Shown: positions 6,752-59,367 of the stretch, in pieces
Position numbering within the stretch: position 1 is the first letter of the stretch
Layout of the letters: each line of letters opens with the position of its first letter
Origin: a virus
DNA length: 64,000 nucleotides
Virus record (IMG/VR): IMGVR_UViG_3300034107_000725
Location: 62,001-126,000 of that record
Reading direction: 5' to 3' (one strand)
The notes under the pieces: model-generated
Seen by the model: only the letters and a program-made list of their open reading frames with translations
Database searches by the model: none
What the model was told of the DNA's origin: nothing
Position numbers and translations under genes: made by a program

Positions 6752-6793
6752 TTGATTTGTCTAATTCTGGATTTTAAAACCAAGGATCCACTC

Positions 6794-13911: not shown

Positions 13912-13952
13912 CATGTGTTGTCTGTAACTCTATATCAGCAGGAGTGGCATAT

Positions 13953-20000: not shown

Positions 20001-20003
20001 GCG

Positions 20004-23000
20004 ATGCAACCGCTCACGCCCAATCTGCTTGAGCCGGAATCCTCATCGCTGTTGACTCCGGCTGCATCTATCCAGCCGTTACCGCCTGCTCCCGATTATC
20101 GGGAGTTTGGTGATACGGTAAAAACGCGTTCACGTATTTATGACAACGTACTGAACGCGGCTAAGAACATACAGCCCGTGTCGAACGACCGCCACACACT
20201 TCGGTTGGCGGATGTGGATTACATGGATTCAGATCGGGTCAGCAAGCGGGATCAGAAGGCCGCTATTCTGAACGGCTTGACCCGCGGGCGAAGGCTACGT
20301 GGTACGTGGGAACTGGTGGACAACGCCAGTCAGCAGGTGCTTGATAGTAAGCGGTCTGTGCTTATGACCGTACCTCACCTCACCGAACGCGGTACGTTCA
20401 TTAACAATGGCACAGAGTACACATTAAAGAACCAACAACGCTTGCTCCCTGGCGTCTACACGCGGGAACGTGATAACGGTGAAATTGAATCACACGCAAA
20501 CGTCTTGCCGGGCAAGGGCGTGTCTCACCGTTATTTTCTAGACCCAGAAAAAGGGCAGTTCAAGATTCGCCTGGGACAAGGCACCGTCAGCCTGATGCCT
20601 TTGCTCAAGTCTATGGGTGCGACTTCAGAACAGATTAAAAATGCTTGGGGCAAAGATCTTTATGCCAGTAACTTCAACAGCGATGACGCTGGCGAACACA
20701 AGAAGCTCCGGGCCAAGTTTCTAAATGCTAAAGAGCTTCAAGGGGATGAGCAGGCACAGCGGGCAGCTCTTGTGCAAAAGTTTGCCAACATGGAGCTGGA
20801 CCCAGAAGTCACAAAGCGAACGCTGGGTAATCCACATGCAGGACTGACCCTGGACGCTGTGATGGATATTACCAAAAAGCTAATTCAGGTCAGTCGTCGG
20901 GAAGCCGAGCCGGATGATCGTGACGCGTTAACCTATCAGAGCTTCCTTGGCCCTGAAGATCTACTTGCAGAAAGAATTTCGCGAGATAAAGGTGGTTTAC
21001 GCCGTCAGCTTTTATGGCAAATGTCGGGGCAAGGCAACCTCCAAAAAATGCCATCTTCTGCCTTGCACAAGCAGCTTCAGGCTGCCATTATGGGTTCCGG
21101 GCTGGGTCAAGCGATCGAAGAAATTAATCCGGCAGAGCTGTACGACAAGTCAACAGCTGTGAGCCGCCTAGGCGAGGGCGGTATTCCTTCCACGGATGCT
21201 ATTCCTAAAGAATCGCGTAGCGTTCAGCCCAGTATGTTCGGATACGTGGACCCTGTGCGAACCCCAGAATCGGGCAAGGTAGGAGTGGACACCTACCTTG
21301 CTCGTGGGGCTCGCAAGGGTTCCGACGGCAAACTTTACGCTCAGTTTAACGACGTTAGAACCGGTGAAACCATTTACAAAACACCGCAAGCTGTTGCGGA
21401 TTTGACTTTGGGTTTTCCTGGAAGCATGCAGCAACTCGGGAAACGGGTAGCCGCTATGCGTAACGGAAAAATGGTCTACGTGCCAAAGCACGAGATAGAC
21501 TTAGAGTTACCAAGCATGGAAGAAGCGTTTAATCCGCTTTCCAACATGATACCTATGAAAAGCCAGGTCAAAGGTCAGCGACTGGTGATGGCGTCTCGAA
21601 TGACCACACAGGCGTTACCTATCGCAGGGGCCGAAGCTCCACTGGTTCAGTCGGCGATACCAGGCACAAACGGACAAAAGAGCTACGAAGAGCTTTATGC
21701 CGGTGCGATGGGTGCGTTACGTGCTCCGCAGGGCGGAACGGTGACCGGTGTAGACGATGACGGCATTCATGTGCGATACGAGGACGGTACTTCAGACACA
21801 CATGAGATGTATCAGAACTTCCCGTTTAACCGTAAAACTTTCATACATCAGACGCCAGTCGTAAGGCCTGGAGACCAGTTTGGTCCAGACCAGTTGCTGG
21901 CCCAGTCCAACTATACTGATAAGACAGGGGCAACGGCTTTAGGGCGTAACGCTCGTACTGCTTATGTCTCGTGGCAAGGCAAGAACTTTGAAGATGCCGT
22001 CGTAATTTCTGAAGGCTTTGCCCGGAAAATGGCTTCTGAGCACATGTATCAGAACAGTCTGGAAGTAGACGACAAGACTCAGCTGGGTAAGCATAATTAC
22101 ATTCAGAAGTTTCCTGGTAAGTTCGATAAGGCAACTTTGGCAAAAATGGATGATAGCGGCGTGATTAAGCCTGGAACGGTGGTACACTACGGCGATCCTC
22201 TCATTCTGGGAACTTCGCAGCGGGAAACCTCGTACAACAAAGTCCACAAAAAAGGACAGGCAGGACACACCGATGCAGCAATCATTTGGGATCATCACGA
22301 CGACGGGACCGTTACCGATGTGGTCATGGGCAAAACGGGACCGACTGTCGTTGTTAAAGCGACGTCAGCCATGCAAGTTGGCGACAAACTCTCTGGGCGG
22401 TACGGAGACAAAGGAGTCATTGCTGATGTCATCCCAGACCATCAAATGCCACATGATAGTGACAAACAACCCTTCGAAGTCCTGTTGAATCCACTTGGTG
22501 TCATCACCCGAACCAACCCGGCTCAGATGTCTGAGTTGTACCTGGGTAAACTAGCAGCCAAGCTGGGACGACCTATCAAGGTCCAAGACTTTGATTCAAG
22601 CAAAGACATGGGCGAATGGGTTTCACAAGAACTGGCCCGTGAAGGTTTGTCTGACTTGGAAGACATCAACGACCCGTCTAAAGATCAGAAGATCGGCGGT
22701 ATTGCTACGGGTCATCGGTTTTTTATGAAGCTGCACCACACGGCTGAGTCTAAGGGACAAAGCCGCGGTGGTGGAGCTTACACAGCGGATGATGCACCGG
22801 CTAAAGGTGGGTCAGAAGGCTCAAAGCGAATTGGGATGTTGGATACAAACGCCTTGTTGTCTCACGGAGCTACGGCAACGCTACAAGACGTGAGTGCAGT
22901 TCGTGGACAGAAGAATGACCAATACTGGATGCAGTTCATGTCCGGCTACAATCCAACAGCGTCCAAGGTACCGTTTGTGTATCAAAAGTTTGTCAATCAA

Positions 23001-24443
23001 CTCAAGTCTGCTGGTGTTAACGTCGTCAAGCAAGGCACACAGACAAACATCATGGCGTTGACGGATAAGGATGTGGATGAGCTGGCCGGTGATCGCGAAC
23101 TCCAAAACGCGGAAGGCGTAGACTGGAATAAGGGGCTCAAGGAAATTTCTGGCGGCTTGTTTGACAAGTCGAAGACCGGAGGTCACGGGGGCAATCGTTG
23201 GAGCTATATCAAGCTGCACGAGCCGTTGCCAAACCCGGTGATGGAAGAACCCATCCGGCGTATGCTAGGTTTGACACAGAAACAGTTTCAAGGCGTAATC
23301 TCAGGCACGGAACCGTTATCTAAGTACGGCACAGGTCCGCAGGCTTTACAAAAGGCCCTGTCCGGAATGAATGTTGATGCTGAGATTGAGAAAGCCCGTA
23401 ACGCTATTTCAGCGGGTCGGGCCTCAGACAGGGATGCGGCGGTGAGGAAGCTAGGATACCTGAAGAGTGCTAAAAAGCTGGGTCTCCATCCTGGCGATTA
23501 CATGCTTACAAAAGTGCCTGTTCTGCCTCCTATGTTTCGACCCGTCAGCATGATGTCAAACGATATGCCACTGATTAACGATGCTAACTACCTTTACAAA
23601 GAGTTATTTGAGGCAAATAACAACCTCAAAAGCATTCAGAGCGAATTAGGACATGAAGCATCCGGGCTGGAACGAATGGCGGCGTACAATGCCTTCAAAG
23701 CTGTCACGGGTTTAGGCGATCCAATTAGCCAGAAAAGTCGAGATAAGAACGTCAAAGGTGTGCTTCAGTCTGTGTTTGGTTCCAGCCCCAAGTTCAGTAC
23801 ACTACAACGCAAACTGATTTCCACCACTGTGGATAACGTCGGGCGGGCGGTGATCACCCCCAATCCGGATCTGGACATGGATTCGGTCGGCCTGCCCGAA
23901 GAGAAAGCCTTCAAGGCGTATGAGAAGTTCGTCACCCGGCGGCTGGTCCGTCAGGGTATGTCGATGAGAGTGGCTCGCGAACACATTGCAAACAAATCGA
24001 AGCTGGCACGCAATATTCTGCTTGAGGAGATGGATCATCGTCCGGTATACATCAGCCGGTCTCCTGTTCTTCACAAGTTTGGGATTTTGGCAATGAAGCC
24101 AAGACTAACCAAGGGTGATACACTTCAGGTTAGCCCTCTCATCGTTAAAGGCTTTAACGCTGACTTTGATGGCGATGCTATGAATTATCACGTACCGAGC
24201 ACAGAAAAGGCCCGACAAGAAGCTCTTGACCGACTTCTACCTAGCCGAAACTTGTTCAGTCTGTCAGACTTTAAATCCGTGATGCACGCTCCGGCAAACG
24301 AGTTTGTCGGCGGTTTGTACCACGCTACGAAATCCGTTAGCGATCGCCCTAAAAAGATCTTTCGATCGCTACAGGATGCTAAGCGGGCCTACGCACGGGG
24401 CGATATTTCTATCGACGATCGCGTGCAAATCCTAGAATCTTAA
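20004..24443 (+). CDS. RNA polymerase beta fused to N-terminal half of beta'
   Basis: The 1479-residue protein is a multisubunit-type RNA polymerase chain. Residues 1 to about 1015 are beta: FINNGTEYTLKNQQRLLPGVY, YVDPVRTPESGKVGVDTYL, VSWQGKNFEDAVVISEGF, VGDKLSGRYGDKGVIADVIP, LNPLGVITRTNPAQMSELYLG and the GGSEGSKRIGMLDTNALLSHGA block. From about 1045 it is beta': TKVPVLPPMFRPVSM, DNVGRAVITPNPDLDM, SRSPVLHKFGILAMKPRL, and NADFDGDAM at 1385-1393 with catalytic Asp 1387, 1389 and 1391. It stops about 85 residues after that motif. The bridge helix and trigger loop are on the chain at 26153. The organisation equals rpoB-rpoC1 fused, with rpoC2 separate. No sigma-like gene was recognised. Confidence 0.93.
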   Translation: MQPLTPNLLEPESSSLLTPAASIQPLPPAPDYREFGDTVKTRSRIYDNVLNAAKNIQPVSNDRHTLRLADVDYMDSDRVSKRDQKAAILNGLTRGRRLRGTWELVDNASQQVLDSKRSVLMTVPHLTERGTFINNGTEYTLKNQQRLLPGVYTRERDNGEIESHANVLPGKGVSHRYFLDPEKGQFKIRLGQGTVSLMPLLKSMGATSEQIKNAWGKDLYASNFNSDDAGEHKKLRAKFLNAKELQGDEQAQRAALVQKFANMELDPEVTKRTLGNPHAGLTLDAVMDITKKLIQVSRREAEPDDRDALTYQSFLGPEDLLAERISRDKGGLRRQLLWQMSGQGNLQKMPSSALHKQLQAAIMGSGLGQAIEEINPAELYDKSTAVSRLGEGGIPSTDAIPKESRSVQPSMFGYVDPVRTPESGKVGVDTYLARGARKGSDGKLYAQFNDVRTGETIYKTPQAVADLTLGFPGSMQQLGKRVAAMRNGKMVYVPKHEIDLELPSMEEAFNPLSNMIPMKSQVKGQRLVMASRMTTQALPIAGAEAPLVQSAIPGTNGQKSYEELYAGAMGALRAPQGGTVTGVDDDGIHVRYEDGTSDTHEMYQNFPFNRKTFIHQTPVVRPGDQFGPDQLLAQSNYTDKTGATALGRNARTAYVSWQGKNFEDAVVISEGFARKMASEHMYQNSLEVDDKTQLGKHNYIQKFPGKFDKATLAKMDDSGVIKPGTVVHYGDPLILGTSQRETSYNKVHKKGQAGHTDAAIIWDHHDDGTVTDVVMGKTGPTVVVKATSAMQVGDKLSGRYGDKGVIADVIPDHQMPHDSDKQPFEVLLNPLGVITRTNPAQMSELYLGKLAAKLGRPIKVQDFDSSKDMGEWVSQELAREGLSDLEDINDPSKDQKIGGIATGHRFFMKLHHTAESKGQSRGGGAYTADDAPAKGGSEGSKRIGMLDTNALLSHGATATLQDVSAVRGQKNDQYWMQFMSGYNPTASKVPFVYQKFVNQLKSAGVNVVKQGTQTNIMALTDKDVDELAGDRELQNAEGVDWNKGLKEISGGLFDKSKTGGHGGNRWSYIKLHEPLPNPVMEEPIRRMLGLTQKQFQGVISGTEPLSKYGTGPQALQKALSGMNVDAEIEKARNAISAGRASDRDAAVRKLGYLKSAKKLGLHPGDYMLTKVPVLPPMFRPVSMMSNDMPLINDANYLYKELFEANNNLKSIQSELGHEASGLERMAAYNAFKAVTGLGDPISQKSRDKNVKGVLQSVFGSSPKFSTLQRKLISTTVDNVGRAVITPNPDLDMDSVGLPEEKAFKAYEKFVTRRLVRQGMSMRVAREHIANKSKLARNILLEEMDHRPVYISRSPVLHKFGILAMKPRLTKGDTLQVSPLIVKGFNADFDGDAMNYHVPSTEKARQEALDRLLPSRNLFSLSDFKSVMHAPANEFVGGLYHATKSVSDRPKKIFRSLQDAKRAYARGDISIDDRVQILES

Positions 24444-24473: not shown

Positions 24474-25187
24474 ATGGGACTGAACCTCGAGCTTCTTAAA
24501 CAAGCCCGATATAACGTACGGGAGCTGGAAAAATCAGCATTTGTAGCTGCCGGTGACCCGTCAATGGGTGGAGATCCTGCGGCTATGGCTGGTGGCGGTG
24601 CTCCTCCTATGGACCCAGCTATGGCTGGCGGTGCCCCTCCAATGGATCCGGCGATGGCTGGCGGTGCCCCTCCAATGGATCCGGCGATGGCGGGTGGTGC
24701 TCCTCCTATGGATCCGGCGATGGCTGGCGGCGGCGATCCAATGGCTGCAATCATGCCGATGATTCAGCAAGCGGTACAGCAAGCAATGGCAGCCAACGGT
24801 GGCGGCGGTAGTGGTCCACAAGCAGGCGGGCCCGGAATCAAACCCAAGATCGACGTCAACGTCGAAATCATGCAGATGAAGAAGATGTTGGCCAAGATGA
24901 TGGACGCCATGGGAATCCACATGCCCGTAGCCGACATGGTGGCCACACCAGAAGATCTCAATCAGATTGCACAAGGTGGAGCCGGTTTCGCCGCAGCTAC
25001 GCCTGATAACGGTGGCGGACTGGGAGCCATCAAGCCGATACAGGCTATGAAGGCCGCAGAAGACTGGGAAAGCGGTGTAGCCTTTACACCTCCTTCCGAG
25101 AATTCATTCCAGCAGTCACACAACGTCACAAGAAGTACGGCAAACATGGCAACAGCGTTATTGCTGCGTAACCGTATGACGGGTTGA
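24474..25187 (+). CDS. Low-complexity Gly/Ala/Pro/Met repeat protein
   Basis: The 237-residue protein starts LKQARYNVRELEKSAFVAAGDPS, which contains two K-x-A motifs, then has about five units of A-M-A-G-G-A-P-P-M-D-P (residues 37-85), a Gly-rich linker and a helical part IMQMKKMLAKMMDAMG. It ends with a Ser/Asn-rich tail. The repeat echoes DPAAMGGDPEAMGGG in the scaffold-like protein at 37935. It lies between the two polymerase genes and may be a linker or scaffold within the virion. AAGGAG precedes the ATG. Confidence 0.65.
   Translation: MGLNLELLKQARYNVRELEKSAFVAAGDPSMGGDPAAMAGGGAPPMDPAMAGGAPPMDPAMAGGAPPMDPAMAGGAPPMDPAMAGGGDPMAAIMPMIQQAVQQAMAANGGGGSGPQAGGPGIKPKIDVNVEIMQMKKMLAKMMDAMGIHMPVADMVATPEDLNQIAQGGAGFAAATPDNGGGLGAIKPIQAMKAAEDWESGVAFTPPSENSFQQSHNVTRSTANMATALLLRNRMTG
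24582..24740 (+). repeat. 33-base tandem repeat inside coding sequence
   Basis: Four near-identical units of 33-36 bases (starts 24582, 24618, 24651, 24684) and a partial fifth (24717) encode A-M-A-G-G-A-P-P-M-D-P. Units 2 and 3 differ by one base, so they are recent duplications or are kept alike by recombination. Confidence 0.9.
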
Positions 25188-26152: not shown

Positions 26153-29100
26153 ATGCTGAATACGACTGTCGGCCAACTGTTGGTAAACGAATCACTGCCT
26201 GAAGACTTGCGGGACTATAACCGAGTCCTGGACAAGAAAGGTATGGGTGCGTTGTTACAGCAGGTGGCTCGACAGTATCCAGAAAAGTACCGTGAAGTGT
26301 CGTTTCAGCTGAGTCAGGTTGGGCAGAGGTCAGCTCAAGACCAGGGGGGTATGTCGTTCGGCATGCGTCACCTGAAACGAAGTAAGATCGCCAACGAAAC
26401 TCGGAAACGGATTCAGGGGCAGCTAGACAACATCTTGTCTGATGACTCGCTCACAGATCAGCAACGCAACGATCTGATTGTGAAAACAGTTGGACGTGAG
26501 AGCGAACCGCAGCAGAAGGCAGTGCTGGAAGAAGCCATTCAAGCCAAGAATCCGTTAGCAATGCAAGTGCTTTCAGGTAGCCGCGGTAAGCCTATGAATC
26601 TTGCCAGCTTGCTGGCAGCAGATATGCTGTACTCGGACCACAGGGATGAGGTTATTCCAATTCCGGTGCTTCGCAGTTACAGCGAAGGCTTGTCCCCGGA
26701 AGAATACTGGGCTGGAACTTATGGTGCTCGTCGCGGGATCATCGCAACTAAGTTTGCCACTCAGGAAGCGGGATTTCTGAGCAAACAGTTAAATCAAGCA
26801 GGTCACCGGCTGGTCGTAATGGGTGAAGAGGGTGACGAAGATCCGGAAGCACCTACTCGGGGTTTGGTCGTTGATACTGACGACATGGACAACGAGGGTT
26901 CGCTTTTGGCTCGGGACGTAGGACCGTACAAGCGAAACACCCCACTTACCCCCAAGATTCTCAAACAACTACAGCGACTTGGCAAAAACCGGATTTTAGT
27001 CAGGTCGCCGATGGTTGGTGGTTCTCCTGAGGGTGGTGTTTATGCTCGAGACGTTGGTATCCGTGAACACGGTACCTTGGCAGGGTTAGGCGAGCAGGTC
27101 GGACTTCAGGCAGCTCAGGCTTTGTCTGAACCGATTAGCCAAGGGCAGCTTTCGGCAAAGCACTCTGGCGGCGTTGCCGGGCAGGAAAAGGCGGTTGGTG
27201 GATTCCAATACATCAATCAGCTGATTCAAACGCCCAAGAAGATGCAGGGTGGAGCTGCTCACTCTACATTGGACGGTACGGTGCAGCGAGTAGAACCTGC
27301 TGCTGCCGGTGGGTTCAACGTAACGATTGACGGCAAGCCGCACTATGTAGGTGAGGGCTTTGGTGTCAAAGTTAAAAAAGGGGATAACGTCGAAGCCGGG
27401 GATGTGCTTAGCGACGGTATTCCCAATCCAGCGGTCATCACTCAGTACAAAGGTGTTGGTGAGGGTCGCCGTTACTTTGTCAACGAATTCCGCAAAGCTA
27501 TGTCAGCTAGCGGTATGCAGGGACACCGCCGCAACATTGAGTTGCTGGCACGCGGATTAATCAATCACGTTAAGCTCACGGAAGAGACTGACGATCATGC
27601 TCCGGACGATATCGTCCCGTATTCTACGTTGGAGCATACATACAAGCCACGGGAAGGCCATGAGCGTCTAACGCCCAAAAAAGCGTTGGGCCAGTATCTG
27701 GAACGTCCGGTGTTGCACTACACCATTGGCACTAAGATTCGCCCGTCGATGCTTAGAGACTTCGATGATTTCGGAGTCCAGGCAATCCCGGTGCATAAGA
27801 ATCCGCCACCGTTCGAGCCACATATGGTACGAGGTATGTACCAAATGCAGCACGATCCGGATTGGATGACCCAGATGTACGGTTCCGGACTCAAAAAGAG
27901 TCTGCTGGAATCCACAGCACGTGGAGCAACCAGCGAGGAACGGGGTACCAGCTTCATCCCCAGCTTGGCGTCAGGCACTGATTTTGGCGAAGTCCCAGAT
28001 CGTGCAGTGATTCAGCCTAAGCCTGCATATTCATTGCCTAAAGTATCCATTCCTGACTTGGAGCCTGAAAATTCAGGATCCACGTTCTTTGGAGGCCGAT
28101 ACAAAGTAGGCATGCAAAAAAGGGCGGTAGAAGCGACCCCACCCAAAGTCGAGGCTCCGGCCTCCACATCTATGTCGGCTCCTACCGCCCCTACTCCCTC
28201 CCCGTCGAATGCCGCAGAGTTGGGTAGCAATAATATTATGTCCCCGGCTACAACTGTCCAGCCCAAACTGGATACAGTGACTCAGCCGATTCAACCGCCA
28301 GCGGATATACCACAGGCAAGCCAGACTCCTAGAGCAAGCCAGACTCCTCCAGCCAGTCAACCGCCGCCAGCCAGTACACCAGCACAGGTTCGGGCAGATG
28401 TGATGCAGGCTTCAAGAACCGCAACTCCGCCTCCGATTCAAGAACCTTTGCCGCAGATTAAAAGACCGTCAACTAAGATGCCAGAGCTATCTACTGGAAC
28501 CGCATCCACTTCTCGGCTAACCAGTTCTCGGCTAGGCTCACAAACAGCAGGCATTCCATGGTGGCGGGCAACAGCAAAGCCGACAGACACGACATGGAAT
28601 AAAACAGAAAATACCGAATTCCATTCTCAGCCTAACTCTGTGTTAGGTGCGACACCGTCTGTGGCCAACCTGGCTGCGAGTCGTTCCTACGCACCAGAGC
28701 CTCCAGCTGCACCTGTAAAGGGTTATGCAGATTATGCTCAAGACGCCTGGGACGCGTTTAAAAACCCTGTAACAACGATTAGTAATCAACTCTACGGTAC
28801 GCCGGAACCTACTGCGGGTAACTCGTTTTCCGATGATGGAAATCTGTTGGCTCGCTCTGGGGTAAATATGGGTCTTAAACAAATGATGGGCCGCTCTGCC
28901 CCGGCTGCGATTACTGCAGCAGCTGAAGCTGCAGTTCCATTGTCTCGGGTGGGTCGATTGGCAGCCGGAGCTCGAGCTTTGTTGCCGGGGTTTTTACCTG
29001 GGGCCAGACTGGCAGCCGGAGGTGCCGCAAGTGCTGCGGGTGGTCTATCTTTGGCACCGGCAGCGATAGGCTTTGCTGCGGTTAACGCAGGCACTGAGCT

Positions 29101-29335
29101 GCTTGACGCAGGCGGTCTTTTGCCAGAATGGGCGGGTGGAGATGGTTGGGGTACTATGGGCTGGGATCAAACTGGCTTCGAAAACGACTTTAAAGATCGG
29201 AGTATACCGGGGGCTGCCTTACATACCGTTATGAACCCACTTAAAAGCATATGGGCTGGCGGTACACGACTAGGTGATGCAGGTTATAGGGGAACGAGCT
29301 GGCTGTACGACAAGTTTAGAGGCGGGGCAAAATAG
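26153..29335 (+). CDS. RNA polymerase beta' C-terminal half with virion-type extension
   Basis: Residues 1 to about 630 are the second half of beta'. SGSRGKPMNLASLLAADM matches the SGARG region, YSEGLSPEEYWAGTYGARRG and TKFATQEAGFLSKQLNQAG are the trigger-loop region (about 176-215), and HGTLAGLGEQVGLQAAQALSEPISQGQ (about 305-331) matches the conserved GEAVGxxAAQSIGEPGTQ block. After that the chain leaves RNA-polymerase homology. Residues about 650-780 are Pro/Ser/Thr-rich, and about 900-1000 are Gly/Ala-rich hydrophobic (ARALLPGFLPGARLAAGGAASAAGG, LAPAAIGFAAVNAG). K-x-A occurs at MQKRAVEA near the junction. Such a tail is absent from cellular beta' and points to packaging and membrane passage. 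Confidence 0.9.
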   Translation: MLNTTVGQLLVNESLPEDLRDYNRVLDKKGMGALLQQVARQYPEKYREVSFQLSQVGQRSAQDQGGMSFGMRHLKRSKIANETRKRIQGQLDNILSDDSLTDQQRNDLIVKTVGRESEPQQKAVLEEAIQAKNPLAMQVLSGSRGKPMNLASLLAADMLYSDHRDEVIPIPVLRSYSEGLSPEEYWAGTYGARRGIIATKFATQEAGFLSKQLNQAGHRLVVMGEEGDEDPEAPTRGLVVDTDDMDNEGSLLARDVGPYKRNTPLTPKILKQLQRLGKNRILVRSPMVGGSPEGGVYARDVGIREHGTLAGLGEQVGLQAAQALSEPISQGQLSAKHSGGVAGQEKAVGGFQYINQLIQTPKKMQGGAAHSTLDGTVQRVEPAAAGGFNVTIDGKPHYVGEGFGVKVKKGDNVEAGDVLSDGIPNPAVITQYKGVGEGRRYFVNEFRKAMSASGMQGHRRNIELLARGLINHVKLTEETDDHAPDDIVPYSTLEHTYKPREGHERLTPKKALGQYLERPVLHYTIGTKIRPSMLRDFDDFGVQAIPVHKNPPPFEPHMVRGMYQMQHDPDWMTQMYGSGLKKSLLESTARGATSEERGTSFIPSLASGTDFGEVPDRAVIQPKPAYSLPKVSIPDLEPENSGSTFFGGRYKVGMQKRAVEATPPKVEAPASTSMSAPTAPTPSPSNAAELGSNNIMSPATTVQPKLDTVTQPIQPPADIPQASQTPRASQTPPASQPPPASTPAQVRADVMQASRTATPPPIQEPLPQIKRPSTKMPELSTGTASTSRLTSSRLGSQTAGIPWWRATAKPTDTTWNKTENTEFHSQPNSVLGATPSVANLAASRSYAPEPPAAPVKGYADYAQDAWDAFKNPVTTISNQLYGTPEPTAGNSFSDDGNLLARSGVNMGLKQMMGRSAPAAITAAAEAAVPLSRVGRLAAGARALLPGFLPGARLAAGGAASAAGGLSLAPAAIGFAAVNAGTELLDAGGLLPEWAGGDGWGTMGWDQTGFENDFKDRSIPGAALHTVMNPLKSIWAGGTRLGDAGYRGTSWLYDKFRGGAK

Positions 29336-40421: not shown

Positions 40422-41369
40422 ATGGCTAGCTCCACTATGATGACTCAGGAAGAAAGCAAACTCCTGAGCCAAACGATCTTCGAGAAGCTCGCTTCTCGGG
40501 ATTCGGGCCTGGAAAAGCAAGCAATTGACGCAGTCAATGATTTTACCCGCACCAAAATGCGGGAAGATGGCTTTTTCCGCCGAATTATGCCGCCAATCCC
40601 AATCTCCAACGACGATCTCGATCGTCAGGTAGATACGGACAAGCCGGTAAAGATCGTGGACAAAGAACCGAACAGCCCTGCCGCTGTTTCGATTCCTTTT
40701 GCCACACTGCCGACGAACCTGTACATCAAGGGTGACCGTTACAAGGTGACCTTCGATCGTATCGTGACACCTAAGTTCACGAAGGACGTCGATGAGCTTC
40801 GTACCTGGTACATGGATATCCGTCAGGTTCTGAGCGATAACGCCATCAAAGACATGCTGGCTGAAGAAGATGGCAAGTTCATCTCCGCAGTCAACACGGC
40901 TCTGGTTGGCCCTGGCCTGGTCGTCCCGACATCGGGCACGATTCAGTATCAGGAAATCTCAGGCGGTATCACCCGTGATACCCTGTGGGATAGCCTCAAA
41001 ATTATGCCAAACACGCCTTCGAACTTGGAAGTTCACTGCGTGCTGCTTAACAACATCACCATCAAAGAAGTTGCGAAGTTTACTCGTAACGAAATGGGTG
41101 GCGACCTCAGCGAAGAGATCATGCGTAACGGCTGGACTCTGAGCGAGTGCATGGGTGTTAAGTGGGTGATTACGATCAAGAAGGGTCTCGTGCCAACAAA
41201 CACGATGTACCATTTCGCTGATCCTAAATTCATTGGCAAATCGTATATGCTCGAGGATACTACAATGTATATCCGTCGGGAGGCATATTTTATCGAATTC
41301 TTCGCGTACGAGTCACTGGGCGGTACGCTCGGTCACACGTCTGGCCTTGCTCGCGTTGACTTTACCTGA
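40422..41369 (+). CDS. Major capsid protein (HK97-like)
   Basis: The 315-residue protein has the length and context of an HK97-fold major capsid protein: an N-terminal helical arm with K-x-A sites (FEKLASRDSGLEKQAID), then a mixed alpha/beta body with SIPFATLPTNLYIKGDRYKVTF, a central helical stretch DIRQVLSDNAIKDMLAEEDG and a C-terminal P-domain-like part VKWVITIKKGLVPTNTMYHFADP followed by YIRREAYFIEFFAYE. The N-terminal arm is probably cut by the gp21-like protease. AAGGAGG and flanking RNA hairpins indicate high expression. Confidence 0.75.
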   Translation: MASSTMMTQEESKLLSQTIFEKLASRDSGLEKQAIDAVNDFTRTKMREDGFFRRIMPPIPISNDDLDRQVDTDKPVKIVDKEPNSPAAVSIPFATLPTNLYIKGDRYKVTFDRIVTPKFTKDVDELRTWYMDIRQVLSDNAIKDMLAEEDGKFISAVNTALVGPGLVVPTSGTIQYQEISGGITRDTLWDSLKIMPNTPSNLEVHCVLLNNITIKEVAKFTRNEMGGDLSEEIMRNGWTLSECMGVKWVITIKKGLVPTNTMYHFADPKFIGKSYMLEDTTMYIRREAYFIEFFAYESLGGTLGHTSGLARVDFT

Positions 41370-42608: not shown

Positions 42609-43853
42609 ATGCTGCTGAGCCTGTTCACTCCAACGCATAAGCCAACCTACTTACCAGAAGCCTACCATTCGCTAAAGCAGCAGAATCTTAAGGACTGGGA
42701 ATGGGTCATCCTTCCCAACGGCAACAACGTCGTAATCCCTGAAGAGATCCAGCGGGATAAGCGAGTTCGAATTGTCACAGGTGGGGAGCACCTACATAAC
42801 GTAGGGGCTTTAAAGCGAAAAGCCTGTGACGCTGCCAGCGGCGATGCGTTCATCGAATTTGATCATGACGACATGCTGGTACCGGGTGACTCGCTCGACA
42901 TCATCCGAGACAAGTTTATAAAAGGTGCCGGGTTTGTTTATTCCGACACCGCTGTCTTTAGATTCAAGCAGGAAATGGGATCAGACGGACAGCTAAAGGA
43001 CGTACACAGTCCTTACACGTATTCTCAGCAGCACGGCTGGGAAAGCTATCCAATCACAGCCAACGGGCTGGATTTGTTGGCGACCAAGTGTTTTGAAGTG
43101 TCGCCAAGGTCCCTGGCCGAAATTTACTACTGCCCGGACCACGTGAGAAGCTGGTCACGTAAGGCTTACTATGAAGCTGGCGGCCACAATCCAGAACTTT
43201 CGGTTTGTGACGATCATGAGCTCATGATCAAAACGTATTTGACCGGTGCTCCGTTTGTGCACACAGGTGGCTGTCAGTATCTGTACCGCATGTTTGATCA
43301 CAACACGGTCATTATGCGGAACAAGCAGATTCAGGATATCACCCGCACACTGAGGGAAACACATGTACAAGGGTTGATCAAATCCTGGCTTAAACGTAAG
43401 GACTTTGCCGAATTGGATCTGACTACGCTGAGACAGTCCGGCTGGGAGCCCGATCGACATTTGCTTCAAGGTTTTGGAAAAGACCAATATGGTCATATAA
43501 TAGCAGATACCGAACTGCAAAAGTTCACAGGTATTCAGGTCCGGGAATTCATGAATGAAGCCTACGAAGCTCTGGTTCCAGGCGGTTATCTTTCCATCAC
43601 AGTCCCTGAAGTCCATTCTGGTATGGGCTATGGTGATGTAGAGTGGCAGAGCCATTTTAGTGCGGTCAGCATGAATCCATACACTCGTGTGACATCTGCC
43701 CGCAATAATGGTAAAGTAAACTGTCGGTTCCAGCAGATTAACTGCTTGGAGGTATATCCTTCAGAATGGCACCGCGACAATGGGTTTAAGTTCCTGCGAT
43801 TTGAGCTGGCTGCTCTCAAGGGACAAAGACACCCAGGACTTCAACATATTTGA
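42609..43853 (+). CDS. GT2 glycosyltransferase with C-terminal methyltransferase-like part
   Basis: The ATG at 42609 lies after the terminator. Residues 1-270 form a GT2 domain: LLSLFTPTHKPTYLPEAYHSLKQQ, then VGALKRKACDAASGDAFIEFDHDDML with the acidic cluster D85-D88. From about residue 290, FMNEAYEALVPGGYLSITVPE matches the C-terminal half of class I S-adenosylmethionine methyltransferases, but the N-terminal SAM-binding glycine motif is missing, so this part may be a relic or a structural domain. It is directly upstream of the collagen-like fibre gene and is a prime candidate for fibre glycosylation. Confidence 0.8.
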   Translation: MLLSLFTPTHKPTYLPEAYHSLKQQNLKDWEWVILPNGNNVVIPEEIQRDKRVRIVTGGEHLHNVGALKRKACDAASGDAFIEFDHDDMLVPGDSLDIIRDKFIKGAGFVYSDTAVFRFKQEMGSDGQLKDVHSPYTYSQQHGWESYPITANGLDLLATKCFEVSPRSLAEIYYCPDHVRSWSRKAYYEAGGHNPELSVCDDHELMIKTYLTGAPFVHTGGCQYLYRMFDHNTVIMRNKQIQDITRTLRETHVQGLIKSWLKRKDFAELDLTTLRQSGWEPDRHLLQGFGKDQYGHIIADTELQKFTGIQVREFMNEAYEALVPGGYLSITVPEVHSGMGYGDVEWQSHFSAVSMNPYTRVTSARNNGKVNCRFQQINCLEVYPSEWHRDNGFKFLRFELAALKGQRHPGLQHI

Positions 43854-43905
43854 TGACTTCATGCTCGTCTCTCGACTGACAACAACGTACCAAGGATGGA
43901 ACTAA

Positions 43906-52997
<9,092 letters not shown>

Positions 52998-52998
<1 letters not shown>

Positions 52999-54071
52999 TG
53001 ATTGAAACACTCTTACGTCAACGTAGTCCTGCTGCAGGAAATCCCGGCAACCAGTATCTGGCTGTCGGGATGTCTGTAGCTCCATTTATCGCAATCTATA
53101 AGAGAAACGGAGATACATTTACTCGGCTTGCTACGCCTGCGTCTGTTCCCATATATGCCGTTACAGGCGTTGCTTGGAACGGATACGACCATTTAATAAC
53201 GGTACACGCAGCATATCCGTATGCGACAGTGTATAAGGTCAATCGATTTACTGACTCATTTACGAAGCTGCCAGACTTCGTCACCAATCAAGGTTACGCA
53301 GACACAGGAGCCGTTTCAATTACTACGATCTCTGGTACTACATATATGGCTTTTACTTTTTCTCTAGTGCCTTATCTTAAGTCTTTCATTATTTCCGGCG
53401 ATACTTTTGGTCAATGTTCCAATCCGGCTTTGCCGCTCTCGCCTGCTACAGGTAGCAGTGCAGGTAATGACATTAAGTACAATCTTAATTCTGGTTCAGG
53501 TAACTGGTTTGCTGTCGGTACTCAAGGCCGACTTTACATATATCGCACGGCTAATCCGCCGGTACAAGTAACACACAGTATGACGGCTGGCGGTGGTTTT
53601 CAGGGAAGAAACGCGGTGCTTCCAAGCGTAAATGACGACTTTATGATGTACAATGCGGCTAGTACTCTTTATTTGTATACAATAACAGGGGGACCTTCTA
53701 CGCCTACTTTTGGCACTAACACGCCTTCCAGTATTTCCCACGGTGGAACTTGCTTCTCCTTAACACAGGATAGCTACTGGTCATGTTTTATAGCGGCAGG
53801 TTGTGGCTCATCCCCTTTCCTTAAAATTTATGATTGTTATGGCCAGTTTATTAGTCAGTGGACTACATATACACTATCGGCCAATCCGCCTAGTCACGTT
53901 GTGGATTCTTGTTTTACTTACGAATCTGATCCCCTACTTGCCTGTGCCCACGCGGCTTCACCGTATATCTCGTTTTACAGACGAAGTGGAACTTCTTTCA
54001 ATAAACTCTCCGATCCCGCTGTTCTACCTAATGGGGCAGCTACCAGTATTGCGTTGAGTGCCACCTTCTAA
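52998..54071 (+). CDS. Beta-propeller tail protein
   Basis: The 357-residue protein contains repeats of about 45-60 residues with the pattern YLAVGMSVAPFIAIYKRNGDTFTRL, HLITVHAAYPYATVYKVNRF and LACAHAASPYISFYRRSGTSF. That is a blade motif in which each unit has hydrophobic-aromatic residues and a Y-K/R-x-x-G-D-x-F turn. A six- or seven-bladed propeller is likely. Such proteins occur beside tail fibres as receptor-binding or fibre-tip partners. Its ATG overlaps the fibre stop (TGATG), so the two are made together. Confidence 0.75.
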
Positions 54072-54088
54072 CTCTTCAAGGATACTTC

Positions 54089-54619
54089 ATGCGTTACAGT
54101 CGAATCGTCGACGGACTACCCACACCACCCCAGCTGCTTCCAATGTCGTTTGCGGATGTCTCCAACTTCCACACGTTGCCTGACGACACGCTGGCAACGT
54201 ATGGCTGGTATCCCTACACTCACACATGGCCTCCCAGCTATGATAAAGCGACGGAACGGCTGGTACAGAACTTCAGCTTTGACGGGACTACCGTAAATAC
54301 AAGCTGGCAGACAGTTCCGCTCACCCCAGAAGAGTTGGCAGATATCGCCAAGCAGACGATTAAAAGTCTGGGACAAGCAGTCAAAGATCACCTGGATGCT
54401 ACGGTGCAGGCTAGGGATTACGATTCCATCATTAGTGCTTGCACCTACGCCACGTCTTCCGTGGATCACTATCGGGACGACGGGCTGGCCTGTGTAAACT
54501 GGCGAGATGCTGTGTGGTTAGAAGTATATATGATTATGGCTGAGGTTGAAGCCGGGACACGGCCAGTACCCTCAGTTGAATCCCTTATCGCTGAACTTCC
54601 GGAGCTTGTCTGGCCATGA
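54089..54619 (+). CDS. Fibre-assembly-like protein
   Basis: The 176-residue protein has an N-terminal domain (LPDDTLATYGWYPYTHTWPP) and a C-terminal helical region with AVKDHLDATVQARDYDSIISACTYATSS and CVNWRDAVWLEVY. This pattern is common in small phage proteins encoded beside tail fibres, of the DUF4376 or tail-fibre-assembly type. A chaperone or fibre-associated role is likely. It overlaps the following membrane protein (ATGA). Confidence 0.6.
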   Translation: MRYSRIVDGLPTPPQLLPMSFADVSNFHTLPDDTLATYGWYPYTHTWPPSYDKATERLVQNFSFDGTTVNTSWQTVPLTPEELADIAKQTIKSLGQAVKDHLDATVQARDYDSIISACTYATSSVDHYRDDGLACVNWRDAVWLEVYMIMAEVEAGTRPVPSVESLIAELPELVWP

Positions 54620-54843
54620 CATTCGCCAAAGCTGCCCGCAACTTCATCATCCTGATCTCTATAGCTATCGGTTTATTGCTGGTCGATCTTTACTTTTGGT
54701 CGCAAGGTCAGCAAACTTGGTCGGAAGCCATTTGGGGTGTCAACCAACGTACCTTAGGGCTGGCAGTTGGTGTGGGGATAGTCCTCGGCCACTGCTTTAC
54801 AGTTCCACGATCTGGAGGATCTGATGCTAATCAATCAAGCTAG
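54616..54843 (+). CDS. Two-helix membrane protein, holin candidate
   Basis: This 75-residue protein has two hydrophobic stretches: FIILISIAIGLLLVDLYFW (about 10-28) and TLGLAVGVGIVLGHCFTV (about 46-63), with a short polar loop between them and a polar C-terminus. Size, topology and a position after the fibre genes match small phage holins. No endolysin was recognised nearby, so the lysis assignment is tentative; an inner-membrane anchor is an alternative. Confidence 0.5.
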   Translation: MTFAKAARNFIILISIAIGLLLVDLYFWSQGQQTWSEAIWGVNQRTLGLAVGVGIVLGHCFTVPRSGGSDANQSS

Positions 54844-55063
54844 TCCTTACACACTGAAGCAACTCGACTTCATCATTGCTCAACTGCAAGCAATTCGGGC
54901 AAGTCTGGTTCCAGCCGTCAACCCAGGTGCAGTCATGCCAGTAGGCGTGCCTGCAAACACCAGTGCTGGCTCAGTGATACTGCCGTCTATAGGTGTAACA
55001 AGTGTTGGGAAACTGTTACCTGCAGCTCCTACACTTCCGACTGCACCAAAACCTGTAGTTTAA
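54824..55063 (+). CDS. Small Pro/Ala/Val-rich protein (79 aa)
   Basis: GGAGG (54812-54816) sets the ATG at 54824, inside the end of the preceding gene. The first 25 residues are helical (ASPYTLKQLDFIIAQLQAIRASL); the rest is low-complexity (VNPGAVMPVGVPANTSAGS, LPAAPTLPTAPKPVV). The stop TAA is the first triplet of a TCCGGA motif. No family was recognised. Confidence 0.55.
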   Translation: MLINQASPYTLKQLDFIIAQLQAIRASLVPAVNPGAVMPVGVPANTSAGSVILPSIGVTSVGKLLPAAPTLPTAPKPVV

Positions 55064-55075
55064 AATCCGGAATTA
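55061..55075. promoter_or_regulatory. TCCGGA near-palindrome motif, copy C
   Basis: TAAAATCCGGAATTA is identical to copy A (17841-17855) and again uses the preceding stop codon as its first triplet. The next gene starts 38 bases downstream. Confidence 0.45.
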
Positions 55076-55112
55076 GCCACTCACCTCACGATTCTCTTGT
55101 AGAAGGCATCAC

Positions 55113-56756
55113 ATGTCATTCCGGTTCCACCTGCTTGGGCTGCCGCACACGGTTTCCAGCCCGGAGTATGTCGCTTGTGCTTACACTCAAAAGGTCGTTA
55201 AGTTTGCCAAGATGATGAAGGCCCGTGGCCACCATATCATCCACTACGGACACGAAGACTCTCAGGTAGACTGCCACGAGCACGTCACGGTCACGACCAA
55301 TCGGGATCTGGAAATTGCGTACGGCAACTACGACTGGCGAGCTGGCTTCTTCAAGTTTGATGTCAACGACCACGCCTACCAGACGTTCTACAGAAACGCC
55401 ATCGTTGAGGTCGGCAAGCGAAAGCAGAATCGCGACTTCATCCTGCCGTTCTGGGGTTCCGGTGTTCGACCTGTCTGTGATGCCCACCCAGACATGATCT
55501 GTGTTGAACCGGGCATCGGTTATGCCGGTGGACACTGGGCTCGTTGGAAAGTGTTCGAGAGCTATGCCATCTACCACGCTTACTGTGGAATGCACAACGT
55601 CAGCACCTGTCGTCAGGATTGGTACGACGTGGTTATCCCCAACTACTTCGATGTCGATGACTTTGAGTATTCAGACGAGAAGGACGATTACTTCTTGTAT
55701 CTGGGTCGGGTCTACGACGGCAAAGGCGTGAACATTGCGATCCAGGTCACCGAGAAGATCGGAGCCAAGTTGATCGTGGCAGGCCAGAAGGAAGAAGGCT
55801 ACGCTCTACCACCACACGTTGAGTACGTCGGCTATGCTGACCTACCAACACGTAAGCGACTCATGAGTCGGGCCAAGGGTAGCTTTGTGCCGAGCATGTA
55901 TGTCGAACCATTCGGCGGCGTTCAGGTTGAGAACCTACTCTCCGGTACGCCTACGATCACGACTGACTGGGGAGCTTTTGTGGAAAACAATCCACACGGA
56001 GTTACAGGTTATCGTTGTCGTTCGTTCGAAGACTTCGTCAACGCTGCCCTGAACGTCGACAAGATTAACCCGGCAGACTGTCGTAAGTTCGGCGAACAGT
56101 TCTCACTGGAAAACGTCGCACTCAGGTATGAGAAGTATTTCCAGGACGTCATGAACGTCTACACGGGTCAAGGCTGGTATCAGATTGGCATACCGTGCGA
56201 CTATCCTACGATGGAAACAGAGGAAGGCCCGTTCGCCAAGCGGCTGGCCGAGTATATCTCCAGCCTTTATTTCTACGGCAGGCAATTTCAAGGCACGGTC
56301 GCGGACATTGGCTGCGGTCCGGGCATCTACACACAGGCGATGCGGGAACTGGGGATTGAAGCCACCGGCTATGACACGGATGCTCGGATCAAGGGTAAAC
56401 CAAATCTAGAGCAGATCTCTCTCTTCGATTTAGATACTCCTGCTGACATAGTGCTTTGTCTGGAAGTGGCAGAACATATTCCAGAGGCTGAGGCGGACGG
56501 TGTGGTTGCCAGTATGGTTCGCAACCTGAAATCGGATTCAACAGCTGGGCTCATCATCTGGACAGCTGCTCAACCAGGACAAGGCGGACACGGGCATATC
56601 AACTGCCAACCGCCGGAATACTGGGACGCCAAGTTTGAAGCTCAGGGCATGACGAGGGAAACCTCATTTGAAGACGATCTGCGAACATTTGCTCGCGACG
56701 GATATCACATGGGTTGGTTCGTCAATAACCTGAGGGTTTATCGTCGTGCCGAATAA
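55113..56756 (+). CDS. GT-B glycosyltransferase fused to methyltransferase
   Basis: This is a 547-residue two-domain enzyme. Residues 1-365 are a GT4-like glycosyltransferase: [20 protein letters not shown] near 198 is the donor-domain start and [23 protein letters not shown] near 260 is the donor-binding motif with Glu. Residues about 390-540 are a class I methyltransferase: [15 protein letters not shown] is motif I and [17 protein letters not shown] is motif IV. The fusion would add a sugar and then methylate it, which caps the glycan. It lies just downstream of the fibre gene group, overlaps the next glycosyltransferase by 11 bases, and forms the fibre-decoration candidates with it. Confidence 0.85.
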
Positions 56757-58368
56757 GCTCCAGACTCACACCGTTGAACAACCGGATAGCGATATCACCG
56801 CGTTCATTCTGAGCTGCAACCGACTCGACCTGCTATCACGCACGGTCGAGTCGTTCTTACAGACTCGGGACATGCCAACCAAGATCGTAATCCTGGACGA
56901 CAGCGGTGTGGATGGTGTGTTTGAACTGCTGGTTCAGCGTTACGGACAGATCGCAGATATCGTTTGCTTCCCAGAGAACCGTGGTCTCTGGTGGGCCAAG
57001 GATTTCATGATCTCGTACTGCTTCACCAAGTACATCTTTTACATAGAAGATGACTGGCTGTTCTTGCAGCCCGGTTACCTGATTAGATCTAAAGCGATCC
57101 TTGAAAAGGATCGTACAATCGGTTCGATTGATCTTTCGTGGCGGACGTTTGAAGAAGAGGGCATGGACGCTTACGACCCTGAACTGGTCGACGATGCCTA
57201 CTTCCACAAAAAGCCTTGGCAGATTACCGAAGGACACTTGCACTGGTTCTGCTGGCAGGGCAGTCCGAATCTAAAACGTCGGGAAGACCTGATCCTGCTG
57301 GGCCGGGTTGAGAGCTATTACACCGAGTGGAATATCGATCGCAAGTTCTATGCCCTGGGTCTAAGAGGTGTTTATCTCAAGGACCGGTATGTAACACACC
57401 TGGGCGACTTCGCCAGCTTGATGGTGAACAAACGCCCGAACGAGCAGAACACTCCAGAAATCTTATATCCAGAAGAGCTGAAGGCTAACAGGTTATTCCC
57501 GGCTTTCGACTACTACGGATTAGATCAGGTGGCTTTAGACATTCGCGGAGATGTTCCAAGGCATCGACAAAATAAGCAGGTGCTGGTGACTTGTGTGCTC
57601 GACATCGGGCGAGAAGCCTACGATCGCCGAAGTTTCCTGGATCACTACATCGAAGGTTTGGAACAGCTGATTGAGCTAAACCGACCGCTGGTTATCTTTG
57701 TAGACGATCGGTACTACATAGATGTCTTAAAGCTCACGGGCGGTCGTCCGATAAAGGTCATCTCGGTTGCTCCGGAACTGATCAAGTGGCGACCCATCTA
57801 TCCACGACTAAAGGAAATCTGCGAGTCCAAGCAGTGGGCATCACAATCAGACTGGATGCAGGGAAGCATCATCCAATCCCCTGATTACATAGGATTGACG
57901 CTGCACAAGATGGAACTGTTGATGCACTGCGTCAATCACAGCGTATTCCGTTCTGACTCTTATTACTGGGTTGATGCCGGTATGTGTCGCAGCTACCACG
58001 TGAGCAATCTTCGTGGCTGTGATTTTGACAAGCTGCCAGCGACGCGATTCTTTATGACTACGTTTCCGTATCCCATGCCAGAGTCTGTTCCAGAGATGCA
58101 CGGCTATTCTCGTAACGGATTTCTGGAACTTTGCGGGCGTATTCCAAACACAGTTTGCAGGGCTACCATTTTCGGTGGCACCAAGCAGGCTATCTCTGAC
58201 GTGTATGTGCAGTACAATGAGTTCTTGAAGCAATCACTTGCAGCAGGGTATATCGGAACAGAAGAGGCAATTTTCTCTGGGTTGGCTATCACCCGCCAGG
58301 AACTGTTCAATCTGGTCCCTATGCATACCGGCGACATTCGGAACTATCTCAACACGTTACGCCACTGA
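56746..58368 (+). CDS. GT2 glycosyltransferase fused to HtrL/YibB-like domain
   Basis: Residues 15 to about 270 form a GT2-like domain ([37 protein letters not shown] with the acidic cluster near residue 102). Residues about 280-540 resemble the HtrL/YibB family, found in lipopolysaccharide loci: [45 protein letters not shown]. That family is thought to be glycosyltransferase-like, so this would be a double glycosyltransferase. The start overlaps the preceding GT-methyltransferase, so both come from one message. Confidence 0.75.
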
Positions 58369-58395: not shown

Positions 58396-59367
58396 ATGTT
58401 ACCGGACGGAACCTCACCGCTCACATTACCTACGGAAACGCTGACCGCAGAACAGCAGAACACCATCCGACCAAAACAGACGGTCATAGACGGTTGTCCT
58501 GTTCTTCCAAAGCTCCAATGTCATGAAGTTCAGATGGGCCAAGACGCTCGACTGATCTGGAACTTTAAGAATCCACAGGGTGAATTCGTGGATTTAACAG
58601 ATGCTTTAAGTTACTCCAGTGCTTCTGGAGCCACATTTGACGCAGTCGGAACACCTGGACAAGGTGTGACGCTTCGTATGCGTGAACTGAGCGGTGCAGA
58701 TTACCGTGACGAGATCTATTCAATCAACGTCACGGTGTTGGATGCAGCTAGCGGTTTGGTACGAGCCGACTCGTTACCCGATGCTATCGTTCGAGCTCCT
58801 GGTGTTTACATGGAAGAGTGGGGTGTGTTTACGTCAGAAGGTCGCATGTTGTTTAGCAACCAGTGCTGCACCTTCGTGCGTCGTGGTTTGTTTGGTGTAG
58901 ACACTGATCCAACCAAGCGAAATCTAGGCCCACCGACACTGGAAGAGATTCGCATGGCACTGAGAGACAACGCCCCGCAAGATAACATGTTGCTCGACGA
59001 AGTGGAGTTTGATGCAGCTGAGATCGCTCAGGCGGTTCTGCGGCCCATTCAGTATTGGAACGAAACCCCACCACCCATCCAACCTATGCTGACAACCAAG
59101 ACGTTTCCATTTCGGGAAATGTGGATGCTTGGGATTCAGTCTTACCTGTTCAGCATGGCCGCCAACCATTACAGACGAAACCAACTTGCTTACTCAGCTG
59201 GTGGCATGTCTGTGGATGATAAGAATAAAGAACAACAGTATCTGGCTGCCGGTAACATGCTACAGCAGCAGTTCCGCGAGATGCTGAGAGCCAAAAAGAT
59301 TGAGATCAACATCAGTCTGTTTTCGGGTAGCTTGGGCTCACCATACGGCAGCATGTTCTATTCCTGA
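58396..59367 (+). CDS. Structural protein upstream of the sheath (323 aa)
   Basis: CGGAG lies ahead of the ATG. The 323-residue protein has an N-terminal beta region (DARLIWNFKNPQGEFVDLTDALS) and a helical C-terminal half with QQYLAAGNMLQQQFREMLRAKKIEIN. It lies with three more small proteins directly before the sheath gene, the place for neck, head-completion or tail-terminator proteins. No specific family was recognised. Confidence 0.55.
   Translation: MLPDGTSPLTLPTETLTAEQQNTIRPKQTVIDGCPVLPKLQCHEVQMGQDARLIWNFKNPQGEFVDLTDALSYSSASGATFDAVGTPGQGVTLRMRELSGADYRDEIYSINVTVLDAASGLVRADSLPDAIVRAPGVYMEEWGVFTSEGRMLFSNQCCTFVRRGLFGVDTDPTKRNLGPPTLEEIRMALRDNAPQDNMLLDEVEFDAAEIAQAVLRPIQYWNETPPPIQPMLTTKTFPFREMWMLGIQSYLFSMAANHYRRNQLAYSAGGMSVDDKNKEQQYLAAGNMLQQQFREMLRAKKIEINISLFSGSLGSPYGSMFYS

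Follow-up and report, generated by a model that had tools for sequence, protein, structure and literature searches.

A glycosyltransferase cassette that recurs beside collagen-like fibre genes in phages: a putative fibre glycosylation locus

We observed that two adjoining genes, one for a GT-B glycosyltransferase fused to a methyltransferase and one for a two-domain GT2-HtrL protein, make up a widely found phage cassette, and our comparisons support its recurrence with collagen-like fibres well above chance. In the window (the whole stretch of 64,000 nucleotides analysed, from the 194-kb virus record of a large aquatic phage), this pair lies downstream of a long collagen-like fibre gene. We give about an even chance to the reading that 43906-58368 is a cassette for a putative fibre glycosylation, in which a collagen-like fibre of the virion comes with enzymes of its own for building glycans. 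As the initial annotation had described, three glycosyltransferase genes flank the fibre gene, one upstream and two downstream. The genes of the locus are as follows.

42609..43853, + strand: GT2 glycosyltransferase ending in a methyltransferase remnant without SAM motif I (PF00535, E=2e-6; alignment; fold match)
43906..52998, + strand: collagen-like fibre, 3030 aa (Pfam Collagen, E=1.2e-169)
52998..54071, + strand: 357-aa protein with repeated motifs, in a 1-base overlap with the fibre stop (no family match)
54089..54619, + strand: 176-aa protein, by eye only like tail-fibre assembly (DUF4376-type) proteins (no family match)
54616..54843, + strand: 75-aa ORF, possible membrane protein with one strongly hydrophobic segment (maximum KD19 2.43)
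54824..55063, + strand: 79-aa ORF rich in Pro/Ala
55113..56756, + strand: GT-B glycosyltransferase (phrog_3408, E=3.6e-207; GT4-like) fused to a class I methyltransferase (E=9.9e-9)
56746..58368, + strand: two-domain GT2 + HtrL/YibB protein (GT2, E=4e-7; HtrL_YibB, E=2e-8)

The two enzyme genes share 11 bases, the GT2-HtrL gene starting before the GT-B-methyltransferase gene ends. The repeated motifs of the 357-aa protein suggest a beta-propeller. Since the fibre gene sits between a probable major head (capsid) gene (phrog_2522 match, E=2.8e-4, with a relative) and neck/tail-type genes, the label 'tail fibre' is unproven; the structure model of the probable major head protein failed (pLDDT 33).

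The Gly-Ala-Thr/Ser fibre described earlier was recovered as one ORF with 23 Pfam Collagen stretches and matches to PHROG tail-fibre families, and 1608 of its residues fall within runs of five or more Gly-X-Y triplets, as against a mean of 24 and a maximum of 102 in 500 shuffles. With these long tracts in a predicted structural protein, its sequence is that of a phage collagen-like fibre. The non-collagenous parts are an N-terminal anchor (aa 1-45), a 432-aa central domain and a C-terminal domain, and the fibre also holds five copies of a module of ~115 aa, found elsewhere only in HTVC010P and DSL-LC01; HTVC010P had no annotated glycosyltransferase near it. For the repeats, a poly-glycine-II bundle was considered as an alternative to the triple helix.

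At the X position, Ala makes up 50%, and at the third (Y) position Ser makes up 36% and Thr 33% (together 69%). Pro is nearly absent, as had been noted (1.6% overall), and Lys is at 1.1%. To our knowledge, most bacterial collagens are not glycosylated, and since Thr at the third position also stands at about their average, it is no specific sign of glycosylation, as it had first been taken to be. That average is 31.6%, or ~32% (PMC8968730), so that the excess of Thr over ordinary bacterial collagens that would mark a BclA-type protein was not found. It is Ser at Y that is unusual in this fibre; Thr is not enriched. The idea that a Pro-poor fibre needs sugar also found no support, since just 2 of the 12 Pro- and charge-poorest survey fibres (one of the 12 left out of the glycosyltransferase scan) had a GT2 or GT-B gene within 5 kb, and we rejected a low content of Pro and charges as a sign that a glycosyltransferase lies nearby.

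We further examined the three enzymes. For the upstream protein, called GT2-methyltransferase-like at first, the GT2 part stands and the methyltransferase part does not. Its predicted fold matches GT-A enzymes, e.g. K4CP and WrtF, with polysaccharide-type and protein-type enzymes matched alike, which is uninformative on the acceptor. The glycine-rich SAM motif I (VDIGGG) is present in the S-CRM01, L017 and L020 homologues and gone from 5/5 members of the lineage, so that the C-terminus lacks the motif of an active SAM methyltransferase and appears to be a remnant. A GTG start at 42570 was also considered for this gene; the homologues do not support it. Because three close relatives (L013-L015) carry the upstream GT2 in the same place without this fibre, it probably lies outside the fibre system, and we dropped it as a fibre partner.

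Both downstream enzymes proved to be the fusion and the double enzyme that had been proposed. The GT-B can be assigned to PHROG 3408 by whole-domain similarity and by its E-x7-E catalytic motif (EPFGGVQVE at 265-273, invariant residues in the alignment); it also matches Pfam Glycos_transf_1 (E=1e-12), and the fused methyltransferase has an intact SAM motif, DIGCGPG. Viral relatives of the GT-B number at least 569, while the prokaryotic matches were 2 among 85,000 genomes, both on MAG contigs. Its methyltransferase partners are of at least three unrelated kinds, namely the fused one, that of L004/L008 and that of L007, and within the lineage the GT-B occurs only in the two genomes with this fibre. 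Homologues of GT2-HtrL (45-55% identity) adjoin the fused GT-B-methyltransferase, or lie one gene off, in 9/30 dereplicated loci, and stand beside a GT-B without the fused methyltransferase in 0/14. An exact-pattern search of viral contigs for GT2-HtrL came back empty, which is misleading, as homologues were seen beside the GT-B relatives.

We then compared the 44 dereplicated GT-B loci among the matches listed with 120 random viral loci as control. At distances up to 2.5 kb from the GT-B, the density of collagen-like genes was 9.0 per 100 kb, as against 0.77 in the control, an enrichment of about twelve-fold that falls off within 5 kb (density 5-10 kb away, ~2 per 100 kb). When only dereplicated loci flanked by 5 kb or more to each side of the GT-B were counted, 7/17 had a collagen-like gene, compared with 6/120 controls (Fisher P=1.4e-4). 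The collagen gene stops 38-59 bp ahead of the GT-B in L004, L007, L379 and L348, and begins 52 bp past it in L329. Glycosyltransferase genes are here tied to a structural gene, as in a virion-protein glycosylation system. The initial annotation had proposed a dedicated fibre-decoration locus and a check of the linkage in related phages; the two downstream enzymes do recur by collagen-like fibres, whereas the upstream GT2 occurs in relatives with or without the fibre.

These figures bear on the possibility that fibre and enzymes are only neighbours in a hypervariable cassette, with separate roles. Such regions collect both glycosyltransferases and fibres, ~ten glycosyltransferase-like genes are scattered across the 194-kb genome, and fibres near to and far from glycosyltransferases did not differ significantly (P=0.10, in a set that includes the wrong-frame ORF L084). 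However, an enrichment that fades within 5 kb, gaps of a few tens of bases, and a recurrence that spans different fibres and methyltransferases speak against it, and we consider it improbable.

The composition of the fibres also follows the type of cassette. In the five GT2-HtrL-linked fibres (window, L329, L344, L351 and L356), Ser is 19-36% at Y and Pro 0-5% at X. Such a Ser-rich, Pro-poor fibre was present at 5/5 loci that have both GT2-HtrL and a collagen-like gene, and at 1/15 other GT-B-linked loci (Fisher P=3.9e-4), in a test that ignores phylogeny; L344, L351 and L356 are relatives of one another (72-82% identity in GT2-HtrL), and the match may amount to some three independent cases. 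This composition was seen in 2/96 survey fibres. Among the GATGATG survey fibres, sampled independently with a pattern that itself favours Thr, the Ser/Thr share at Y was higher in those with GT2/GT-B within 5 kb (0.66 as against 0.53, P=0.002) and their charge content was lower (0.015 as against 0.069, P=0.0003), again without regard to phylogeny. Together, the data support that one cassette type, GT2-HtrL, matches one unusual fibre composition.

Several observations count against fibre glycosylation. The fibre anchor is 62% shared with the 512-aa fibre of L016, the only other carrier found, and L016 has the GT-B without the methyltransferase or GT2-HtrL. L317, L366, L367 and L357 have GT2-HtrL but no collagen-like gene. 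Against fibre glycosylation are also the GT-B relatives beside non-collagen fibres (S-CAM7, ACG-2014f, S-CBWM1), beside nucleotide-metabolism genes, or without any collagen-like gene (G005, a 153-kb contig), and these phages' second fibre, which is Pro-rich and Ser/Thr-poor and is nonetheless followed by a GT9 enzyme.

The main rival is that the enzymes add and methylate sugars on host LPS or exopolysaccharide during infection, to block superinfection or keep progeny from re-adsorbing to debris; receptor-binding and receptor-modifying genes would then be exchanged together in a host-recognition cluster. HtrL/YibB is an LPS-region gene, the GT9 enzyme is heptosyltransferase-like, and these phages have more glycosyltransferases elsewhere; the non-collagen neighbours of the GT-B relatives fit as well. 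Fibre-cluster glycosyltransferases of pelagimyophages and cyanophages (PMC7029224) and jumbo-phage clusters (PMC7824862) have been interpreted so. However, one GT-B is used, at 64-77% identity, by phages of very different kinds, marine Synechococcus phages among them, across which host glycans would be expected to differ; the excess by collagen-like genes is specific and cassette type fits fibre composition; and the three enzymes lack membrane segments (hydrophobicity over any 19 residues ≤1.28), with no membrane-embedded Gtr enzyme of the gtrABC kind recognised in the cassette. We hold host-surface modification to be quite possible, at a probability well below even.

Another reading is that the enzymes glycosylate or methylate DNA bases, shielding them from host nucleases; this is a classic role of phage glycosyltransferases. 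GT2-HtrL weakly matches a glucosyl-HMC glucosyltransferase family (E=0.03), and some GT-B relatives lie near nucleotide-metabolism genes (thymidylate synthase, dCMP deaminase). Set against this, the cassette lies inside a structural module and is linked to fibres, and the thymidylate synthase/hydroxymethylase family gene expected of T4-type DNA glucosylation is absent from this genome (G000); we regard this role as very improbable.

If the fibre is the acceptor, soluble GT2-HtrL and GT-B would move sugars from host nucleotide-sugars onto Ser/Thr of the Gly-Ala-Ser/Thr tracts in the cytoplasm, before or during fibre trimerisation, and the fused methyltransferase would cap the glycan by O-methylation, giving a hydrated, stiff, Pro-free fibre. 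The lack of membrane segments in the three enzymes supports soluble action; we infer the acceptor, the order of transfer, the part played by methylation and any stabilising or masking effect. More tentatively, and rather unlikely in this full form, there may be a widespread phage-specific O-glycosylation for collagen-like fibres, in which interchangeable subtypes (swapped methyltransferases, a second GT-B, GT2-HtrL) fit the repeat sequence and methylated Ser/Thr glycans replace proline/hydroxyproline in stabilising the fibre. If the fibre is indeed glycosylated, phages have a collagen glycosylation of their own. That would account for the cohesion of Pro-free collagen-like fibres, or for their escape from proteases and host defences, and would supply a soluble pair of enzymes with which glycosylated collagen could be made in bacteria. 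With the conserved cassette one can test concretely what the many fibre-cluster glycosyltransferases do, most of which are at present assumed to modify LPS; should the acceptor be the host surface, the cassette still stands as a widespread and recognisable phage module.

BclA tracts, by comparison, are rich in Pro and Thr. Hydroxyl residues are abundant at Y in BclA-type bacterial collagens as in the phage fibre, and their glycan is thought to aid hydration and stability (PMC8968730); the phage fibre is instead Ala-Ser/Thr with hardly any Pro, and its enzymes are different and phage-specific. In a search limited to the GDP_Man_Dehyd family of deoxysugar biosynthesis, no such gene was found in the record. 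The prophage fibres EPclA/EPclB are likewise collagen-like without hydroxyproline, but were unglycosylated as recombinants, with stability credited to Pro at X and charges (PMC3368898), both scarce here. Mimivirus L230, a collagen lysyl hydroxylase/glucosyltransferase, glycosylates the virus's own collagen-like proteins, acting on hydroxylysine via its hydroxylase domain (PMC9614988); the phage fibre is poor in Lys, and the cassette had no lysyl hydroxylase Pfam domain. In mycobacteriophages, phage-encoded glycosyltransferases target virion proteins (Freeman et al. 2023, Cell Host Microbe, cited in PMC12619734); the targets there are capsid and tail-tube subunits, with no mention of a collagen-like fibre, GT-B-methyltransferase or GT2-HtrL cassette. 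Glycosyltransferases also stand beside fibre genes in pelagimyophages and jumbo phages, read as modifying LPS/O-antigen or capsule, with no collagen specificity or cassette described in the sections available (PMC7029224, PMC7824862). The view of such a locus as new or little described is therefore partly right: virion glycosylation, L230 and fibre-cluster glycosyltransferases were known, and new here is the downstream GT-B-methyltransferase and GT2-HtrL pair as a widespread phage cassette.

The window covers bases 62001-126000 of a virus record of 193,990 bases. We observed that the fibre-region genes sit between a probable major head protein and neck/tail-looking genes, in this order:

40422-41369, probable major head protein (phrog_2522, E=0.0067; E=2.8e-4 with a relative)
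42609-43853, GT2 enzyme
43906-52998, collagen-like fibre, 3030 aa
between the fibre and the next listed gene, a 357-aa protein, a 176-aa protein and two small ORFs
55113-56756, GT-B-methyltransferase fusion
56746-58368, GT2-HtrL two-domain protein
from 58396 onward, neck/tail-looking genes with conserved synteny

The fibre gene overlaps the 357-aa gene by 1 base, and the two genes of the cassette (GT-B-methyltransferase and GT2-HtrL) overlap by 11 bases. Elsewhere, 20004-24443 and 26153-29335 match multisubunit RNA polymerase beta-type phage families, and for one of these genes the nearest annotated phages (Vibrio phages D181/D148/D69 and Salmonella phage Arash) are at ~29% identity; possibly the record comes from a group that encodes an RNA polymerase of its own. 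A ribonucleotide reductase with an additional NrdD-like N-terminal match (13908-16226), a tandem repeat (24593-24744; 33-base unit, 4.6 copies) and more glycosyltransferase-like genes (GT2, GT9), at 6752-7612 and, outside the window, at 34.8, 159.7 and 188.8 kb of the record, were also seen.

The collagen signal of the fibre is far beyond chance, with 1608 residues in Gly-X-Y runs against a mean of 24 in shuffles. Ala makes up 50% of X, Pro 1.7% of X and 0.2% of Y, Ser 36% and Thr 33% of Y; 3.4% of residues are charged. The initial annotation had pointed to third-position Thr/Ser as the O-glycosylated site of BclA-type collagens; since bacterial collagens average 31.6% Thr at Y (PMC8968730), Thr alone is no sign of glycosylation. 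The unusual trait is Ser at Y, for which 96 other phage fibres have a median of 0.017 and a 95th percentile of 0.10.

Four related IMG/VR genomes have the region in common with the window. At three loci (L013-L015), a homologue of 58396-59367 directly follows the upstream GT2 gene, and the entire 14.5-kb insert is absent. The same site in a further relative (L016) holds a 512-aa collagen-like fibre, its N-terminal anchor 62% like that of the window fibre, and a GT-B (75%) without the methyltransferase. Within the lineage, GT-B occurs only in the two genomes carrying this fibre. Thus GT-B is inherited along with the fibre, whereas the upstream GT2, earlier proposed as a third fibre-decorating enzyme, is probably separate from them. 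In the C-terminal methyltransferase part of this GT2, motif I has been lost; S-CRM01, L017 and L020 retain the motif.

In all five genomes of the lineage the tail module ends with another collagen-like gene, whose product is Pro-rich and has little Ser/Thr at Y (0.09-0.15). Wherever the contig continues, the gene is followed by one for a GT9-containing protein of ~650 aa whose C-terminus is GT-A-like by eye. Metagenomic contigs of the lineage break or wrap within this second collagen-like gene (L049, L050, L052, L053, L060-L069), which probably leaves repeat-rich fibres under-represented in assemblies.

A profile search with GT-B gave at least 569 viral relatives and, in addition, two in genome contigs (both MAGs); 58 of the best 80 also covered the methyltransferase part. 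After dereplication at 85% GT-B identity, 89 loci became 44. A collagen-like gene lay within 5 kb of GT-B in 19/36 evaluable loci, short loci being counted only if a match was seen. In an unbiased set, restricted to loci with 5 kb to either side of GT-B, the count was 7/17, against 6/120 random viral loci (Fisher P=1.4e-4; the controls include many prophages). Collagen-like gene density was 9.0 per 100 kb within 2.5 kb of GT-B, ~2 at 5-10 kb and 0.77 in controls. Methyltransferases of at least three unrelated kinds adjoin GT-B. GT2-HtrL homologues were next to, or one gene away from, the fused GT-B-methyltransferase in 9/30 loci and beside GT-B alone in 0/14, in varying gene order. L344 and L351 have a collagen gene followed by GT2-HtrL, GT-B-methyltransferase and T4-type neck genes (head-tail adaptor Ad2 and head closure Hc2 in L351; assigned by sequence similarity in L344), a position parallel to that in the window, which hints at a head/neck fibre.

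In L317 (8906-9965), two genes adjoining a GT-B-methyltransferase/GT2-HtrL cassette are sulfotransferase-like by eye; one was examined for a family match and none was found. Synechococcus phage S-CAM7 (L002) has a 2OG-Fe(II) oxygenase (19814-20410), a possible hydroxylase partner, between GT-B and the tail-fibre gene. HtrL/YibB homologues of the GT2-HtrL protein also lie near a >3000-aa virion protein (phrog_10938) in Xanthomonas phage XacN1 (L312/L315) and Stenotrophomonas phage RAS14 (L316); in XacN1 one also adjoins GT9 and carbamoyl-transferase genes, after baseplate genes.

Each of the five fibres that have GT2-HtrL close by (window, L329, L344, L351, L356) has 19-36% Ser at Y and 0-5% Pro at X, as against 1/15 other GT-B-linked loci (L330; Fisher P=3.9e-4), although three of the five GT2-HtrL sequences are closely related and independent cases are nearer three. 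This composition occurred in 2/96 survey fibres. The non-repeat parts of the window fibre had no detectable similarity to the other four.

We also evaluated collagen-like fibres independently of GT-B, using a DNA pattern for GATGATG; 91 loci found with it carried collagen ORFs. Among the 36 contigs that reached 28 kb or more, 12/34 GT2/GT-B genes had the collagen gene within 5 kb (5.2 expected, P=0.002). With 50 shorter contigs added, 15/86 fibres had such a gene within 5 kb, so it is absent near most collagen-like fibres. The 15 fibres that have one were richer in Ser/Thr at Y and carried fewer charges; within large contigs the near-far difference was not significant (phylogeny uncorrected in both).

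The analysis shows the linkage, the conservation of the cassette, its match to fibre composition, intact motifs and the lack of membrane segments, whereas acceptor, sugar and function are inferred. In the favoured reading, to which we give an even chance, the soluble enzymes of the cassette would put sugar on fibre Ser/Thr, perhaps adding a methyl cap. Modification of the host surface, the standing reading of such genes (PMC7029224, PMC7824862), is the main rival and less likely. One well-conserved GT-B in very different phages argues for a phage-borne or universal acceptor. Some GT-B members have no fibre nearby or adjoin non-collagen fibres, and a 153-kb contig (G005) has a GT-B member and no collagen-like gene; collagen is therefore not the sole acceptor, if it is one at all.

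The locus had been called new or little described. In the literature, incompletely covered, we found no description of a recurrent GT-B-methyltransferase/GT2-HtrL cassette beside collagen-like fibres, and to that extent the claim holds; taken singly, its elements are already known, namely glycosylation of virions, glycosylation of viral collagens, and fibre clusters that contain glycosyltransferases.
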